From NCBI RefSeq assembly GCF_022759505.1, contig NZ_CP094289.1:3472001-3536000 (forward strand): a stretch of 64,000 bases of DNA. The letters run 5' to 3'. The notes below the pieces were generated by a model. That model ran no database searches and was not told where the DNA came from. It saw nothing but the letters and a program-made list of their open reading frames with translations. Made by a program: the position numbers and the translations under genes. The stretch's first letter is position 1; every line of letters starts with the position of its first letter. The DNA is from Georgenia sp. TF02-10 (GTDB taxonomy: Bacteria > Actinomycetota > Actinomycetes > Actinomycetales > Actinomycetaceae). Below, piece after piece: positions 20,444 to 35,713 of this stretch.

Positions 20444-20554
20444 CCCAGCCACATAGCGCACAATTTCCACTCCGGGAGCCTGTTGCTTTTTGGGCTGGCG
20501 CGGGCCTGGGCGTGTCTGCCGGCCGGCCTGGGCGCTGCCGGGAGGATCGGGGGT

Positions 20555-22477
20555 ATGGCCAGGACGTACCGGGTGGTGGATCGGGACCAGGAGTTCTTGC
20601 TCCCGCCGGACATGCGTGAGTGGTTGCCGCCGGAGCATCTGGTGTGGTTCTTGATCGCGGCGGTGGAGCGGATGGACACCACCGCCTTCCACGCCAAGGC
20701 CCGGTTGGGTGGGGTGGGTCGGCGGGGGTATGACCCGGAGATGCTGCTGACGCTGTTCGTGTACGCGATGGCGCAGGGGGAGTCCTCCTCGCGGCGGATC
20801 GAGCGGCTGTGCCACACGGATGTGGCGTTCCGGGTGATCTGCGCCCAGGACGTCCCGGACCACACGGTGCTGGCCCGGTTCCGCCAGCGCCACGAGGAGG
20901 CGCTGACCGGTCTGCTGACCGAGTCGTTGGTGCTGGCCGCCGAGCTGGGGATGCTCTCGATGGGGGTGGTGGCTCTGGACGGGACGAAGATCCAGGCCAG
21001 CGCCAGCAGGGGCGCCAACCGCAGCGAGGCCACCCTGCGGAAGATGGCGGAGGACTACGTCGGCCGGGTCGGCGCCACGGACGCGGAGGAGGACGCCCTG
21101 TTCGGTCCGGACAAGCGCGGGGACGAGCTGCCCGAGGCGGTGACCGACCGGACCGACCGGGGTGGGCGGATCCAGCGGGCGCTGGACGTCATCACCGCCC
21201 GCCGCACCAAGACCGAGGCGGAGGAGAAGAAGAAGGCCGAGCGGGCCCAGAAGCGCGCCGCCGCCCGCAAGGTGGAGGCGGAGGCGGAGGCGGCGAGGGC
21301 CGCCGAGCGGGCCGAGAAGTATCTCGCCGCCCGCCGCAAGGCCGAGGCCGAGGCGGCGAAGACGGCCGAGCGGGCAGAGAAGACGGTCGAGCGGGCCGAG
21401 GAGTACCAGAGCGCGCAGGCGGAGGGGGCCCCGCTGTGCGGGCACCCGCCGAAGGGGGTGGACCCGGTCGGCGTGGCCAGGGCCCGGTGGGAGCGGGCGC
21501 GGGCGCAGGCCGCGGCCCGGTACGAGGCCTACCAGGGCGACCTGGCCGCCGGGGTGGTCAGGAGGGGACGCCCGCCGCTGCCGCCGGACGAGCACTGCCG
21601 GGTCCGTCGGGCCTGGGTGGCCTACCAGGCGGCCCTGGCCGCCCGCGGCCTCGTGACCGCTGGTCAGGACACGGCCGGCGGCACCGATCAGGACCGGGCC
21701 CCAGGCGCCGGCGCCGGCAACGCCACCGGGGCCGGCACGGAGCAGACCGCCGACGCCGGCCAGGCGCCGGGCGCCGGCACGGAGCAGGCCGCAGACGCTG
21801 AGAAGGTTGGCGCCGGGGCGGCGGCGCAGGCCGGCGGCCCGGCCGGGGAGAACGCCGGGGAGAAGGTGTATGCCAACCTCACCGACCCGGACTCCCGGCT
21901 GATGAAGACCCGCGACGGTTGGGTCCAGGGCATGAACTGCCAGACCTCCACCAGCGAGGACGTGTTCATCCTGACCGCCCGGGCCACCCAGGACACCACC
22001 GACGTGCGCCAGTTCCTGCCCACCAAGGACGCGGTCGAGACCACCCTGGCCACCATCGCCGAGCGCACCGGCCGGACGGACCTGACCATCGGGACGATGC
22101 TCGCCGACGCGGGGTATGACTCCAACGAGAACCTCACCGCACCCGGCCCGGACCGGTTGATCGCCGACAGCAAGCGCCGCCGCCTGTCCGCCCGCGCCAC
22201 CACGAACCCGGCCGAGGGTCCACCACCGGAGGGTGCGTCGGCCCGGGAGAAGGTCAACCACCGGCTGCGCACCCCCGACGGGCTCGCCACCTACCGGCGC
22301 CGGTCCCACCTGATCGAAGCCCCCAACGCCTGGCTGAAGGACGGCCGCGGGCTGCGCCGGTTCTCCCGCCGCGGCCTGGCAGCGGTGCAGTCCGAGCTCT
22401 CCCTGGCCGCCGGGGTGACCAACCTGCTCCGCCTGCTCGCCAAGGGAGTGACCACCGCCCAGCTCCAGGTCGCCTGA
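20555..22477 (+). CDS. IS1182 family transposase
   Basis: This 640-residue DDE transposase starts at the ATG with GGAGG upstream (20541). The N-terminal part (about 45-135) is the DUF772-like DNA-binding region containing YDPEMLLTLFVYAMAQGE. Catalytic acidic residues are most likely Asp142 (VVALDGTKIQ), Asp518 (MLADAGYDSNEN) and Glu588 (RSHLIEAPNAWLKDG). Between about residues 155 and 435 lies a long insertion. It contains a Lys/Glu/Ala-rich predicted coiled coil (215-290) and a Gly/Ala-rich linker (370-432), making the protein longer than most relatives. The frame is intact, so the element may be active. Confidence 0.88.
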   Translation: MARTYRVVDRDQEFLLPPDMREWLPPEHLVWFLIAAVERMDTTAFHAKARLGGVGRRGYDPEMLLTLFVYAMAQGESSSRRIERLCHTDVAFRVICAQDVPDHTVLARFRQRHEEALTGLLTESLVLAAELGMLSMGVVALDGTKIQASASRGANRSEATLRKMAEDYVGRVGATDAEEDALFGPDKRGDELPEAVTDRTDRGGRIQRALDVITARRTKTEAEEKKKAERAQKRAAARKVEAEAEAARAAERAEKYLAARRKAEAEAAKTAERAEKTVERAEEYQSAQAEGAPLCGHPPKGVDPVGVARARWERARAQAAARYEAYQGDLAAGVVRRGRPPLPPDEHCRVRRAWVAYQAALAARGLVTAGQDTAGGTDQDRAPGAGAGNATGAGTEQTADAGQAPGAGTEQAADAEKVGAGAAAQAGGPAGENAGEKVYANLTDPDSRLMKTRDGWVQGMNCQTSTSEDVFILTARATQDTTDVRQFLPTKDAVETTLATIAERTGRTDLTIGTMLADAGYDSNENLTAPGPDRLIADSKRRRLSARATTNPAEGPPPEGASAREKVNHRLRTPDGLATYRRRSHLIEAPNAWLKDGRGLRRFSRRGLAAVQSELSLAAGVTNLLRLLAKGVTTAQLQVA

Positions 22478-22741
22478 CCCCCACCAGGGGCACCCCCACA
22501 CCCCCGCCAGGGCCCCCACCCGCCCGCACAGCCCCCGAAGTCCCCCCAGGGCGTCCAGCACACGCTCGGCCCGGCTCACCGAGCCGCTGGTCCGAAAATC
22601 CCGCCACCAGGCCCCCGCGCGACCGCCGCCAAAGGACAACAGGCTCCCGGAGTGGATATTGGTCAAGGGGTCCGACGGCACACCGGGCGTGAGCCCACGC
22701 CGGCACCGGGCGCCGCTCTCGGCCGCCACCGCCACCGGACG

Positions 22742-27309: not shown

Positions 27310-27342
27310 TCTCATCCCCCTCTCATCCGGATCCGTCACGAT
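27310..27342 (+). promoter_or_regulatory. direct-repeat operator and -10 upstream of the two-component operon
   Basis: TCTCATCC occurs at 27310-27317 and again at 27321-27328, an 11-base period expected for a tandem OmpR-family dimer site. A -10-like CACGAT (27337-27342) follows, six bases before the ATG at 27349. Since the operon encodes an OmpR-type regulator, autoregulation is a reasonable inference. Confidence 0.55.
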
Positions 27343-27348
27343 GGGGCC

Positions 27349-27762
27349 ATGAGCAGGTGGACGGCAGTGCTCGCGGGGGCCCTCGTGACCGTGGTCGTCG
27401 GCGCGCTGGCGGTGGTCGGCGTCGCCGCGCTCGGCGCGCCGCGGGGAGACGTCGCCCTGCCGGCGGCGGTGGTCCGGCCCACCCCGGCCGCCGCGCCGAC
27501 GGCGTCCGCGCCGGCGGCCGACCCGGCCCCGACGACCCCGCCGGTCACCCCGCCGGAGCCGGCAGCGTCCGCGGCGCCGCCGGCCGGCGGGGACGACCTG
27601 GTCGCGGTGCCCCCGCCCGCGCCGCGGGACGTCGACGACGACGACGCCTGCGACGACGTGGCCGATCCTGATGACGACGCCGACGACGTGGCTGACCCGG
27701 ACGACGATCCCGACGATGACCCGGACGACGATCCCGACGACGACGCGGACGATGGCTGCTGA
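27349..27762 (+). CDS. small membrane-anchored or secreted Asp-rich protein of unknown function
   Basis: The 137 residues start with one hydrophobic segment (about 5-29), a signal anchor or signal peptide. A Pro/Ala-rich spacer (35-80) follows, then an extremely acidic tail (92-137) built of PDDD and DDVADPDDDADD repeats, ending in Cys. I do not recognise a family. Such Asp-rich repeats could bind calcium or other cations outside the cell. The stop overlaps the histidine kinase start by 11 bases, so it may feed a signal to that sensor. The start is probably leaderless, with a -10-like CACGAT six bases upstream. Confidence 0.7.
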   Translation: MSRWTAVLAGALVTVVVGALAVVGVAALGAPRGDVALPAAVVRPTPAAAPTASAPAADPAPTTPPVTPPEPAASAAPPAGGDDLVAVPPPAPRDVDDDDACDDVADPDDDADDVADPDDDPDDDPDDDPDDDADDGC

Positions 27763-29617
27763 CGGCATCCGGTCCGCCGATGGGCGGACCGACCCCGCCG
27801 GCAGCCGGCGCACCGACCCGGCCGGCGGCCGGCGCACCGACCCGGCCGGCCCAGCCGCCCAGGACCCGGCGGGCAAAGGCGCCGGGGAACCGGCCGCCGT
27901 CGACCCGGCGGAGCCGGCCGGGGACGACCCGGCGGGGCCGGCCGCCGTCGGCCCAGCGCACCCGGCCGCCGTCGACCCAGCGCACCCGGCCGCCGTCGAC
28001 CCGGCGGACCCGGCCGCCGTCGGCCCAGCGCACCCGGCCGCCGTCGGCCCGGCCGACCCGGGCGCCGAGAAGCACGGCGGTCCCCGCGGCCGGCAGACCA
28101 GCCGGCCGGGGCTGACGGTCCGCGCCCGCATCCTCATCGTCGTGCTGGCGCTGACCGGCGTGACGCTCCTGGTCGCCGGCGGGTCCGCCTGGGTGCTCCA
28201 GCGCGAGCGGGTCGACGACACGATCGACGCCACGCTGCGGCACGCCGCCACCGACTTCGCCTCCTTCGCCGGCGGTGTCCGGCCCGAGACCGACGTCCGC
28301 ACGCTCCTCTACGACGGCATGCTGCGGGCGGTGCCGGCGACGAACCAGGGCATGCTCGGGTTCGTCGGCGAGCGGCTCGAGCTGACCCTGCCCTCCGGGC
28401 CGGACCTGGCCGGGGACGCGGCCCTGGTGGACCGGCTCACCGCCGACCTCGCCGGCCTCGCCGCCGGCGACGGCGGCGGCAGCGCCCGGATCAGCTCGGC
28501 GGCCACCCCGACCGGGCAGTACCGCTACGCGCTCGTCCCGGTCACCGTCGGGGACGCCGTCGCCGGCGGCCTGGTCATCGCCGTCGACCGGTCCGCCGAG
28601 CAGGCCCCGGTGGACGAAGCGTTCGCCACCTACGCCGCGGTCAGCGTCGCCGCGTTCGCCCTGCTCGCGGTGGTGGGGTGGGTGATGGCCGGCCGGCTGC
28701 TCAGCCCGGTGCGGCACCTGCGCGAGGCCGCGGAGCAGATCTCCGACACCGACCTGTCGCGCCGGATCCCGGTGCGCGGCAACGACGACCTGTCCCAGCT
28801 GACCCGCACGGTCAACGCCATGCTCGCCCGGCTGGAGGACTCCTTCGCCTCCCAGCGGCGCCTGCTCGACGACGCCGGGCACGAGCTGCGCACCCCGATC
28901 ACCATCGTCCGGGGGCACCTGGAGGTGATGGACCCGGCCGACGCCGGGGACGCCGCGGCCACCCGGGAGCTCGCGCTGCGCGAGCTGGACCGGATGCACC
29001 GGCTCGCCGACGACCTGCTCATCCTGGCCAAGGCCGAGCAGCCGCACTTCGTCCAGCCGGCACCGACCTCCCTCGGCGAGCTCCTCGACAACGTCCTGGA
29101 CCAGGCCCGCCCGCTCGGCGAGCGGCGCTGGCGGGTGGACGAGCGGGTGGAGGCGGACGCCGTCGTCGACGCCCAGCGCCTCACCCAGGCGCTGCTGCAG
29201 CTGGCCGCGAACGCGGTGACGTTCTCCGCGCCGGGGTCCACCGTCGCGGTCGGGTCGGCGCTGCGCGGGGACCGGCTGCACCTGTGGGTGCGGGACGAGG
29301 GCGTCGGCATTCCGCCCGAGGAGCAGGACCGCATCTTCGGGCGCTTCGTGCGGACCTCGGGGCGGGCCCGGCCGGGCGAGGGCGCCGGCCTGGGGCTGGC
29401 GATCGTGGCCGCCATCGCCGCCGGTCACGGCGGCACCGCGCGGGTCAGCTCGGTCCCCGGCGCCGGGTCGACGTTCGTCCTGGACCTGCCGGCCCGGGGC
29501 GTCGTGCGCCCGGCCGGCTCGAACGACGACGACGGCGGGCCCGGCCCGTGGCGCCTGGCCGGCGGGGGCGGCCGCGACGGGGACGCGGCGGGACCCGCCC
29601 GCGGCCTGGCAGGCTGA
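27752..29617 (+). CDS. two-component sensor histidine kinase with Pro/Ala/Asp repeat N terminus
   Basis: This 621-residue membrane kinase starts at the ATG inside the end of the preceding gene. Residues 10-105 are an unusual repeat of DPAG and (H/D)PAAV(D/G)PA units, predicted to lie in the cytoplasm. Transmembrane helix 1 spans about 125-148 and an extracytoplasmic sensor runs to about 290. Helix 2 is about 295-315, then HAMP. The phosphoacceptor is His377 in LDDAGHELRTPIT. The ATPase domain has LAANAV (N box), DEGVGIPPEEQDRIF (G1) and GAGLGLAIV (G2). It pairs with the next gene's response regulator. The signal is unknown. Confidence 0.9.
   Translation: MAADGIRSADGRTDPAGSRRTDPAGGRRTDPAGPAAQDPAGKGAGEPAAVDPAEPAGDDPAGPAAVGPAHPAAVDPAHPAAVDPADPAAVGPAHPAAVGPADPGAEKHGGPRGRQTSRPGLTVRARILIVVLALTGVTLLVAGGSAWVLQRERVDDTIDATLRHAATDFASFAGGVRPETDVRTLLYDGMLRAVPATNQGMLGFVGERLELTLPSGPDLAGDAALVDRLTADLAGLAAGDGGGSARISSAATPTGQYRYALVPVTVGDAVAGGLVIAVDRSAEQAPVDEAFATYAAVSVAAFALLAVVGWVMAGRLLSPVRHLREAAEQISDTDLSRRIPVRGNDDLSQLTRTVNAMLARLEDSFASQRRLLDDAGHELRTPITIVRGHLEVMDPADAGDAAATRELALRELDRMHRLADDLLILAKAEQPHFVQPAPTSLGELLDNVLDQARPLGERRWRVDERVEADAVVDAQRLTQALLQLAANAVTFSAPGSTVAVGSALRGDRLHLWVRDEGVGIPPEEQDRIFGRFVRTSGRARPGEGAGLGLAIVAAIAAGHGGTARVSSVPGAGSTFVLDLPARGVVRPAGSNDDDGGPGPWRLAGGGGRDGDAAGPARGLAG
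27890..28062 (+). repeat. degenerate 21-bp in-frame repeat
   Basis: GTCGACCCGGCGGACCCGGC-like units of 21 bases recur about eight times within the kinase gene and encode the heptapeptide PAAVDPA or PAAVGPA. Length variation here would be silent for the reading frame. Confidence 0.8.
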
Positions 29618-29710: not shown

Positions 29711-30382
29711 GTGGCGCAGATCCTGGTGGTGGAGGACGAGCCGGGCATCTCCTCGTTCGTCGCCAAGGGGCTGCGGGCCGCCGGGCACCAGCCCACCGCC
29801 GTCGCCACCGGCCGGGAGGCCCTCGCGCACGCCCACACCGGCGGCTACGACCTGATGGTGCTGGACATCGGGCTGCCGGACCTCGACGGGTTCGAGGTGC
29901 TGCGCCGGGTCCGCGGGCAGGGCTCGACGATGCCGGTGATCATCCTCACCGCCCGGTCCTCGGTGGACGACACCGTCGCCGGCCTGGAGGGCGGGGCGGA
30001 CGACTACATGCCCAAGCCGTTCCGGTTCGACGAGCTCCTCGCCCGGATCCGGCTGCGGCTGCGGACCGAGACCGCCCCGCCCGGGCCGACCGTCCTCACC
30101 TGCGGCGACCTCGTGCTGGACCTGCTCGGCCGCCAGGTCACGGTGGGCGGCACGACGATCGAGCTCTCCGCCCGCGAGCTCGCCCTGCTCGAGGCGTTCA
30201 TGCAGCACCCCGGCCAGGTGCTCTCCCGCGAGCAGCTGCTCTCCCGGGTGTGGGGCTACGACTTCGACCCGGGCTCCAACGTCGTGGACGTCTACGTGCG
30301 GTACCTGCGCCGGAAGATCGGCGCCGGGCACGTGGCGACCGTCCGCGGGCTGGGCTACCGGCTGGTCGCCCTGCCCGGCTGA
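29711..30382 (+). CDS. OmpR/PhoB-family response regulator
   Basis: The receiver domain (1-115) has acidic pocket residues Glu8/Asp9, phosphoacceptor Asp52 (VLDIGLPD), Thr80 and Lys102 (PKPF). The C-terminal winged helix (about 128-223) includes LSARELALLEAFMQHPGQVL and the recognition region NVVDVYVRYLRRKIG. The start is GTG with GGAGG close upstream. It is 93 bases downstream of its cognate kinase and is the likely regulator of the TCTCATCC repeats upstream of the operon. Confidence 0.93.
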   Translation: MAQILVVEDEPGISSFVAKGLRAAGHQPTAVATGREALAHAHTGGYDLMVLDIGLPDLDGFEVLRRVRGQGSTMPVIILTARSSVDDTVAGLEGGADDYMPKPFRFDELLARIRLRLRTETAPPGPTVLTCGDLVLDLLGRQVTVGGTTIELSARELALLEAFMQHPGQVLSREQLLSRVWGYDFDPGSNVVDVYVRYLRRKIGAGHVATVRGLGYRLVALPG

Positions 30383-34315: not shown

Positions 34316-35713
34316 TCAGTAGGGCTGACGCTGGGCGAGCAGCTCCCGGCCGCGGGCGAGCCACCGCTCGGCGCGGGCCAGCCGGCCCTCGGCGTCGCCG
34401 AGCCACCGGCCGCCGTCGGTGCGGCGGGCGCCGGCGACGAGGGAGAGCACCACCCCGGCGGCCCGCCCGTGCAGGGCGACCGGGTCCACCAGGGTCTCGC
34501 AGGTCCGGGTCCACCGGTCCAGCACCACCGGCACGCGGGGGTAGGTGGCCGGTGCGAGGTGGGGCAGCACGCTGACGTGGCCGAGCAGGCACGCGAGGTC
34601 GTCCACCCGGTGGCCCGGGCCGACGGCGTCGACGTCCAGCAGCGCGGTGACGGCGACGGCACCCGGGGTGGAGTCCATGAGGATGTTCGCCTCGTAGAAG
34701 TCCCCGTGCGTAGGCACCACCGGGCCGGGGTCGGCGCGGTCGATGAGCTCCTCGACGCCCCGGGCGACGGCGCGGATGCGGTCGGCGTGCGCGGGCAGGA
34801 CGGTGGCCGCGGCGTGGGCGTAGTGCTGGGCGCGCTCGGCCCACGCCGCCCGCCGGGGGAGCTCCAGCACGGCCGGGGGCAGGGCGTCGAGGGTGGCCAC
34901 CAGGGCGGCCAGGACGGCGTCGGTGCGCTCGCCCGGACCGACGGCGAGGAGGTTTGCCAGCGGGGTGCCGTGCCCGGCCCCGAGCAGGACGAGGCCGTCC
35001 TCGTCGGCGCGCAGCAGCGGCGGGGCGGGCACGCCGGCGGCGGTGAGGATGCGGTGCCGGTCGGCGAGGGTGGCCAGGGTGGCCGGCCGGACGACCTTGA
35101 GGTAGGCGACCCCGTCGGCGTCGCCGCCCGACCGGGCGGGGAGCGCGGCGCCGGTGCCGCGTGCGCCGTCGGCCGGGGCGCCGCCGGCCGGGGCGCCGCA
35201 GGCCGGGCCGCCGCCGGTCGGGGCGCCGTCGGTCGGGACGCCGCCCGCCGCCGGGCGGACCCGCAGCACCGCCCGACGGGTGGGCCGGTAGGCGAGCAGC
35301 TCCACGGCCACCGGCGCACCGAGCCGGCGGGCCAACGCGGCCGGGTCGCAGGCGACGGCGAGCGCGGGCAGCTCGGGGTCGGCGGGGTGGCGCCACAGGT
35401 GGACGACCGGCCCCTCCACGCCGTTGCCGAGCCGGACCAGGTCGGGCCCGGGCCGGCGGGTGAGCCGCGCCGTCGTCGCGCACAGGTACTCCTCGCTGCG
35501 CCGCGGCGGCCCGCCCGAGTCTGGCCGCTCGACGGTGGCGGTGTAGCCCACCGTCACCCCGGCCCCGGGCCGGTGGTGGACGGTGTGCACCCGCCAGGAC
35601 ACCAGCCGGGAGCCCTCGGCGCGGAGGGCCCCGGCGAGGAGGTCGCCGGCCCGGTCCCCGGTGAGGAGGGCGACGTCGGCGGGCTCCCTCGACGCTGCGG
35701 GCGGCACGCTCAT
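34316..35713 (-). CDS. aminoglycoside phosphotransferase/choline kinase-like protein
   Basis: The 465-residue product has a kinase-like phosphotransferase fold. VVPTHGDFYEANILMD is the Brenner-type catalytic motif (HGDxxxxN) and LLDVDAVGPGHRVDDL holds the metal-binding Asp. The N-lobe includes YLKVVRP. Residues around 185-225 are a Gly/Ala/Pro insertion (GAPTGGGPACGAPAGGAP) coded by the dispersed GGCGCC repeats. The real substrate is unknown; many such proteins phosphorylate small metabolites rather than antibiotics. The ATG at 35713 gives the expected start. Confidence 0.78.
   Translation of the reverse strand: MSVPPAASREPADVALLTGDRAGDLLAGALRAEGSRLVSWRVHTVHHRPGAGVTVGYTATVERPDSGGPPRRSEEYLCATTARLTRRPGPDLVRLGNGVEGPVVHLWRHPADPELPALAVACDPAALARRLGAPVAVELLAYRPTRRAVLRVRPAAGGVPTDGAPTGGGPACGAPAGGAPADGARGTGAALPARSGGDADGVAYLKVVRPATLATLADRHRILTAAGVPAPPLLRADEDGLVLLGAGHGTPLANLLAVGPGERTDAVLAALVATLDALPPAVLELPRRAAWAERAQHYAHAAATVLPAHADRIRAVARGVEELIDRADPGPVVPTHGDFYEANILMDSTPGAVAVTALLDVDAVGPGHRVDDLACLLGHVSVLPHLAPATYPRVPVVLDRWTRTCETLVDPVALHGRAAGVVLSLVAGARRTDGGRWLGDAEGRLARAERWLARGRELLAQRQPY

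Follow-up and report, generated by a model that had tools for sequence, protein, structure and literature searches.

The 64,000-nucleotide stretch of Georgenia sp. TF02-10 DNA analyzed here (the window) carries an operon in which the gene for a small, aspartate-rich membrane protein precedes those for a sensor histidine kinase and a response regulator. The following features are discussed.

27310..27327, plus strand: core operator TCTCATC-N4-TCTCATC, an exact match to two direct repeats with an 11-bp period; predicted site of the operon's own OmpR-type regulator
27337..27342, plus strand: putative -10 element CACGAT, at +27 counted from the start of the operator
27349..27762, plus strand: 137-aa membrane-anchored protein with N-terminal membrane segment, juxtamembrane patch LPAAVV, Pro/Ala linker and PDDD-repeat tail (open reading frame and conservation; predicted topology)
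27752..29617, plus strand: sensor histidine kinase with two membrane helices flanking an acidic extracytoplasmic domain, HAMP, HisKA and HATPase_c (Pfam and models)
27783..28068, plus strand: 24-bp tandem-repeat expansion giving a Pro/Ala/Asp-rich cytoplasmic N-terminal kinase extension, adjoining the 12/24-bp tail repeat of the small gene
28199..28618, plus strand: the kinase's extracytoplasmic sensor domain, with a mixed fold of PDC/PAS-like type and a net charge of -9 (model pLDDT 95.2)
29711..30382, plus strand: OmpR/PhoB-type response regulator with receiver and winged helix, presumed activator acting at 27310-27327
34316..35713, minus strand: APH-fold phosphotransferase, with relatives near the kinase pair in many loci including L033, L103, L026 and L072

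Pfam scores of the kinase exceed the cut-offs for HAMP (52.8 bits), HisKA (42.8 bits) and HATPase_c (88 bits). The regulator, already taken as OmpR-type in the original prediction, combines Response_reg (PF00072, 95.1 bits) and Trans_reg_C (PF00486, 93.7 bits) at 29711-30382, both above cut-off, with PrrA (1ys6) as top-scoring solved relative. In the 137-aa protein, which matched no Pfam family at E 0.1, a short N terminus precedes the one, strongly hydrophobic segment, and the PDDD tail is encoded by an imperfect 12/24-bp tandem repeat at 27693-27752. Reading frame, membrane segment and PDDD tail agree with the earlier description of an Asp-rich exported protein, but by eye the segment resembles an uncleaved N-in/C-out anchor more than a clear signal peptide. 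The Pro/Ala/Asp extension of the kinase was not seen in three relatives with a clear kinase start (L026, L033, L103). Elsewhere in the window, a DDE transposase gene (DUF772, DDE_Tnp; 20461-22661) lies between the genes for ribosomal proteins L10 (19411-20022) and L1 (22798-23565), its inverted arms (20461-20514 and 22608-22661) being 74% complementary.

A kinase-frame ATG at 27752 places the two reading frames in the proposed 11-base overlap (27752-27762); the exact kinase start is a prediction, since earlier in-frame ATGs exist at 27671 and at -46 from the end of the small gene. The tight coupling expected from this overlap finds support in the family: of 39 upstream copies of the small gene (four of which, the window among these, fall outside the 72 homologous loci described below), 24 have a start codon in the kinase frame between -20 and +5 relative to their end.

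The repeat in front of the small gene, TCTCATCCCCCTCTCATCC at 27310-27328, is an exact direct repeat of period 11 without a single mismatch, just as first read. With up to three mismatches allowed, 0.27 repeat matches are expected in the window and two were found, one perfect and one with three mismatches; within the 4.09-Mb genome, the site at 27310 is the single perfect TCTCATC-N4-TCTCATC. Alignment of sites from homologous loci yields the consensus GATGAGA-N4-TCTCATC-N4-TCTCAY, often trailed by a third, degenerate repeat, with a first element, GATGAGA, that is the reverse complement of the other operator elements. The operator in the window is shorter than this family consensus, the GATGAGA half-site being missing, and the 29-base operator was not found in the source genome with one mismatch allowed. 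Allowing at most two mismatches, the core operator was found upstream at 36 of the 72 homologous loci and beside none of the 39 control regulators.

The distance between operator and gene also takes preferred values. Counted from the first TCTCATC in 40 loci (39 plus the window), -10-type NANNNT elements peak at +27 (15/40) and +38 (20/40), two classes that differ by 11 bp, which is one repeat unit. Start codons accumulate at +39 (13), +42 (9), +50 (9) and +51 (11), against a background, calculated with the peaks left out, of ~1.1 per position in 40 loci (P for at least 13, ~3e-11). The window has the -10-like CACGAT at +27 and the ATG at +39. The last repeat thus probably takes the place of a -35 box, and a leaderless mRNA is predicted from the conserved distances of -10 element and start codon from the operator.

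Two genome samples with some members in common, 248 from the order and 394 from the class, were then searched for the 29-base operator at no more than one mismatch. They yielded 24 sites in 21 genomes and 54 sites in 43 genomes, respectively, and the reversed pattern gave 0 matches in either sample. From part of these sites, 49 loci were examined (L164-L212, of which L173 and L187 represent one place). Behind the operator lies an acidic-tail membrane protein in 17, the kinase of this module directly in nine (L188, L190, L191 and L194-L199, recognized by eye) and an APH-family phosphotransferase at nine places, 13 of the 49 holding none of these three classes or being cut short; as the matches stem partly from the same few families, these counts are not independent. 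A search made with the operator only, and without information on the module, mostly led back to the module. Autoregulation, as first proposed, is well supported by sequence comparison: a predicted operator at preferred promoter spacing precedes the operon in many genera, and the operator-only search finds the same set of genes.

Several relatives of the APH-fold phosphotransferase also have the operator in front, and no operator was detected before the phosphotransferase of the window (34316-35713). In the source genome, one-mismatch operator-like places at 1121563, 1819723 and 3090388 showed no convincing target gene, and a two-mismatch inverted operator-like site lies at 2610917. Further individual observations concern other genomes. 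At L173 (1500-1540), two overlapping divergent operators face a phosphotransferase one way and an L,D-transpeptidase with peptidoglycan-binding domain the other way. At L185 (1500-3028, one genome), an operator stands before two genes, the first for a DUF4956 protein and the second for a VTC-domain (polyphosphate polymerase-like) protein. Four Nocardioides loci (L078, L087, L089, L091) carry, on the minus strand at ~6.4-7.2 kb, an operator-like site with one or two mismatches before ORFs with RDRDxSRGDxTKD-type tails.

Conservation of the small protein was assessed around relatives of the regulator. From named genome contigs, the 80 best-ranking loci were taken, each encoding a kinase relative, and 72 formed the test set after eight with <2.6 kb upstream of the regulator were dropped. 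Test and control loci were screened with an identical detector, which calls an ORF with a hydrophobic segment, then a disordered tail, if D and E make up 25% or more of its final 45 residues, with a run of three; "upstream" denotes a plus-strand ORF starting >1 kb before the regulator. Controls were 39 other OmpR-type regulator loci from five genomes: 40 had been taken from 54 Trans_reg_C places, the other 14 being five target regulators and nine others, one of them a second close relative in genome G013. One control (L159), in which the regulator match was missing, was dropped, and another (L161) ends at a contig end.

The acidic membrane protein, whose absence from homologous operons the original prediction had named as speaking against it, was detected upstream of the kinase at 35 of 72 test loci and elsewhere at the locus at 11; at 26 the detector found none, a mixed outcome for that condition. 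The same detector found no such ORF at any of the 39 control loci (46/72 versus 0/39; Fisher p 9e-13, a value that counts related loci as independent). A looser filter, applied to the target loci of the five genomes that supplied the controls, shows the protein at four of five (the window, L103, L108 and L110) versus 0 of 39 controls; tails at L103, L108 and L110 contain 51-67% D+E, and the fifth target locus (L030, genome G007) has only a weakly acidic tail protein. The upstream form occurs in named genera including Phycicoccus, Pseudonocardia, Rhodococcus, Nocardioides, Geodermatophilus, Tessaracoccus, Kineosporia, Cellulosimicrobium and Isoptericola.

Among the 11 loci with the protein elsewhere, which include two weaker cases (L069, L092), nine encode it beyond the regulator and on the other strand, and we therefore consider it tied to the module and not to one operon position. 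Some entries labeled "D" (L037, L050, L063) resemble shadow or unrelated ORFs; the upstream protein is already there at these loci, and locus counts are unaffected. Operator and upstream protein do not always coincide: six loci (L039, L043, L044, L050, L061, L094) have the acidic upstream protein without an operator within two mismatches, and seven have the operator without an acidic upstream ORF. At three Georgenia and Oceanitalea loci (L028, L030, L033) the operator stands directly before the kinase gene, with the start codon at +39, and the detector found no acidic membrane ORF; L028 and L033 encode a membrane protein with a SAPSADS-like tail convergent past the regulator, a similar ORF is found in L030, and L108 has both the acidic and the SAPSADS-like form. 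As a membrane protein with a much less acidic tail occurs at some loci lacking the acidic ORF, poly-Asp appears not to be strictly needed.

The 39 upstream proteins measure 82-242 aa (median 108) and share an architecture. Their last 45 residues contain 765 Asp versus 64 Glu, the C-terminal residue is D or E in 34, a V..PPP..D junction precedes the tail in 32, and cysteine is present in three. An AxA motif, which would allow cleavage, lies near the end of the membrane segment in 21, the window included, and in Actinomycetospora (L074) two proteins, one encoded upstream and the other downstream, resemble lipoproteins, judged by eye from a lipobox. A short hydrophobic patch of PITV or LGxVVVV type, LPAAVV in the window, often follows approximately 10-15 residues after the membrane segment; its mean score is 9.26, against a shuffled mean of 7.85, and only just passes the highest value reached in 2000 shuffles (9.25). 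The acidic tail, encoded by mixed Asp codons (148 GAT, 617 GAC), is conserved in composition, not in order.

As a structure search with the whole kinase was dominated by kinase cores, the sensor domain was modeled alone. The closest solved folds are WalK extracellular domains (Z 12.2, 2.9 Å, 128 residues), with TlpB, KinD, CusS, CitA and DcuS among the lower matches; PhoQ is not among the 50 matches listed, which is evidence neither way, and Foldseek E-values were weak, the best being 0.001. A fold predicted to be shared with WalK shows no function. Across 58 sequences the sensor has a median net charge of -11, and at least two cysteines occur in two of them, with none in the window.

We propose that the locus is an autoregulated three-component envelope-sensing operon in which the acidic protein most likely serves as a feedback accessory of the kinase, a reading to which we assign a probability of just under one in two (about 0.48). 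Gene order, operator, promoter spacing and family conservation enter this model as results of comparison between genomes, as do the likely targets picked out by motif. The window's regulator would bind two to three direct TCTCATC repeats, spaced by 11 bp, at the position of the -35 box, and would, presumably as activator and not as repressor, switch on a promoter giving a leaderless mRNA. Its first product would cross the membrane once and, given the predicted export topology, hold the poly-aspartate tail outside on a disordered linker; the kinase would be translated by coupling from the overlapping small gene, and the regulator next. Membrane segment and juxtamembrane patch may sit beside the sensor domain, in contact with the kinase, and the poly-Asp tail may set the activity of the kinase by sensing or buffering divalent cations, or cationic compounds, at the cell surface. 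Such feedback would parallel that of YycH/YycI on WalK and of MgrB on PhoQ. Because sensor and tail are both acidic, their direct attraction is unlikely unless a cation bridges them. Speaking for the proposal are the contrast with the control regulators, the Asp-rich tails, the juxtamembrane patch, the operator spacing, the operator-only search and the WalK-like sensor fold; speaking against it are the 26 of 72 loci where the detector found no acidic protein, the six loci with the protein but no operator within two mismatches, and the shortened operator of the source genome, which shows no convincing second target. The small protein had been suggested as signal for, or output of, the kinase; the predicted operator before its gene bears out the second role at the level of transcription, and a role as signal, be it by modulating the kinase or by responding to cations, is what we infer. 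That the protein specifically acts as an antenna for cations or cationic peptides, a membrane-anchored disordered poly-aspartate chain under its own regulator that feeds back on a PDC-type kinase in a widespread actinobacterial three-component system, with a convergently encoded Ser/Ala/Asp-tail form in some genera, is a tentative and rather doubtful extension of this model.

The strongest competitor, not far behind the feedback accessory, holds that the acidic protein is output only: the kinase would sense envelope damage alone, and the regulator would raise a surface polyanion that captures cations or cationic antimicrobials and makes no contact with the kinase. We consider this a serious, if less probable, alternative. 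It draws on the operators found before acidic or other small membrane proteins outside a kinase operon, on the envelope-related look of single further targets, namely the L,D-transpeptidase that has a peptidoglycan-binding domain and a glycosyltransferase whose C-terminal domain belongs to family 28, and on a tail whose composition but not order is conserved. The juxtamembrane patch and the residence beside the kinase, however, exceed what a simple polyanion needs.

The feedback accessory also has to be weighed against a heavy-metal system of the Czc/Cop/Sil kind, with the Asp-rich protein buffering metal. The top NCBIfam models are indeed TIGR01386 for the kinase and TIGR01387 for the regulator, and the silver-bound CusS sensor is among the fold matches (Z 9.3), but scores stay far under the curated cut-offs (195.8 versus 292.55 and 201.2 versus 279.2), for which we rejected membership in CzcRS/CopRS/SilRS, and the two flanking genes, as the immediate neighbors considered, encode an aminotransferase and a Na:Ala symporter. 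Poly-Asp, moreover, suits hard cations and not Cu or Ag, which counts against this reading, and we regard it as improbable. Scores also stay under the cut-offs of two other families: CseBC, with the regulator at 195.6 versus a cut-off of 350 for NF041733, and MtrAB, at 189.4 versus 300 for MtrA and 163.5 versus 450 for MtrB.

Alternatively, the tail might act in cis, its Asp or Pro-Asp runs destabilizing the ribosome that translates them, with a greater effect at low Mg2+, and thereby setting translation of the overlapping kinase gene. Acidic nascent chains are reported to destabilize the ribosome (PMC9718836; see also PMC8092293), and this, like the kinase-frame starts found where the small gene ends (24 of 39 copies), counts in its favor. 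The same kind of tail is nevertheless kept where the gene is convergent or elsewhere, beyond cis reach of the kinase, the tail lies far from the N terminus, and the membrane segment is retained; this persistence of the protein away from the kinase gene makes such a role very unlikely. Least credible of all is that the small ORF merely arises from GC-rich triplet repeats without being a real gene, for although its tail is a tandem repeat at the DNA level and the adjoining kinase gene holds another, 24-bp, repeat, the protein architecture is conserved over many genera with mixed GAT/GAC codons (148/617), start codon and promoter lie at preferred distances, and such an ORF occurs in 0 of 39 control loci.

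Collectively, these results suggest that an Asp-tail membrane protein, a kinase and a regulator form a three-part sensing system that is widespread in actinobacteria and apparently undescribed. The top matches of the literature searched, in which few subscription papers were covered, held no description of such a system, in line with the initial remark that none of this exact make-up was known; the make-up is nonetheless not peculiar to this locus but recurs in many actinobacterial genera. If the proposal is correct, it would extend the known means of sensor kinase control by a class of accessory protein, its active end being a disordered poly-Asp tail, in many actinobacterial genera. The 29-base operator was unseen in all sampled genomes of one genus (genome sizes 5.8-11 Mb), presumably Streptomyces, and its absence from what would be the best-studied genus could be why a description is missing.

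In the WalRK system of Firmicutes, the single-pass membrane proteins YycH and YycI are encoded in the operon and act as accessory proteins on WalK. The locus analyzed here shares with it an OmpR-type regulator, a similar predicted extracytoplasmic fold of the kinase (Z 12.2) and a predicted single-pass membrane protein encoded in the operon. It differs in that the kinase of the window lacks a Pfam-detected cytoplasmic PAS domain and scores 153.3 versus a cut-off of 725 for NF033092, and in that its small protein, without YycH/YycI or any other Pfam domain (E 0.1), looks disordered, is acidic and is encoded first. CzcRS, CopRS and SilRS supply the top-scoring NCBIfam models for kinase and regulator, both of which stay under their curated cut-offs. 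CutRS of Streptomyces is likewise an actinobacterial two-component system of the cell envelope; PMC12802291 gives TAWATAAA as the CutR site and two conserved sensor cysteines for CutS, whereas the conserved site at the promoter analyzed here consists of TCTCATC repeats and fewer than two cysteines are found in 56 of the 58 sensors. Identity with CutRS was rejected for the lack of sensor cysteines and an apparently different regulator site. MgrB, according to PMC8404706 and PMC10576120, is a small single-pass membrane protein that belongs to the regulon of its own regulator and acts on PhoQ. By analogy, the protein described here would resemble MgrB of the PhoQ/PhoP system in its small size, single membrane pass and place in the regulator's own regulon, and differ from it in length, MgrB having 47 aa compared with a median of 108 for the upstream proteins, and in carrying an acidic tail. 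The closest known kind is a two-component system with a membrane accessory protein.
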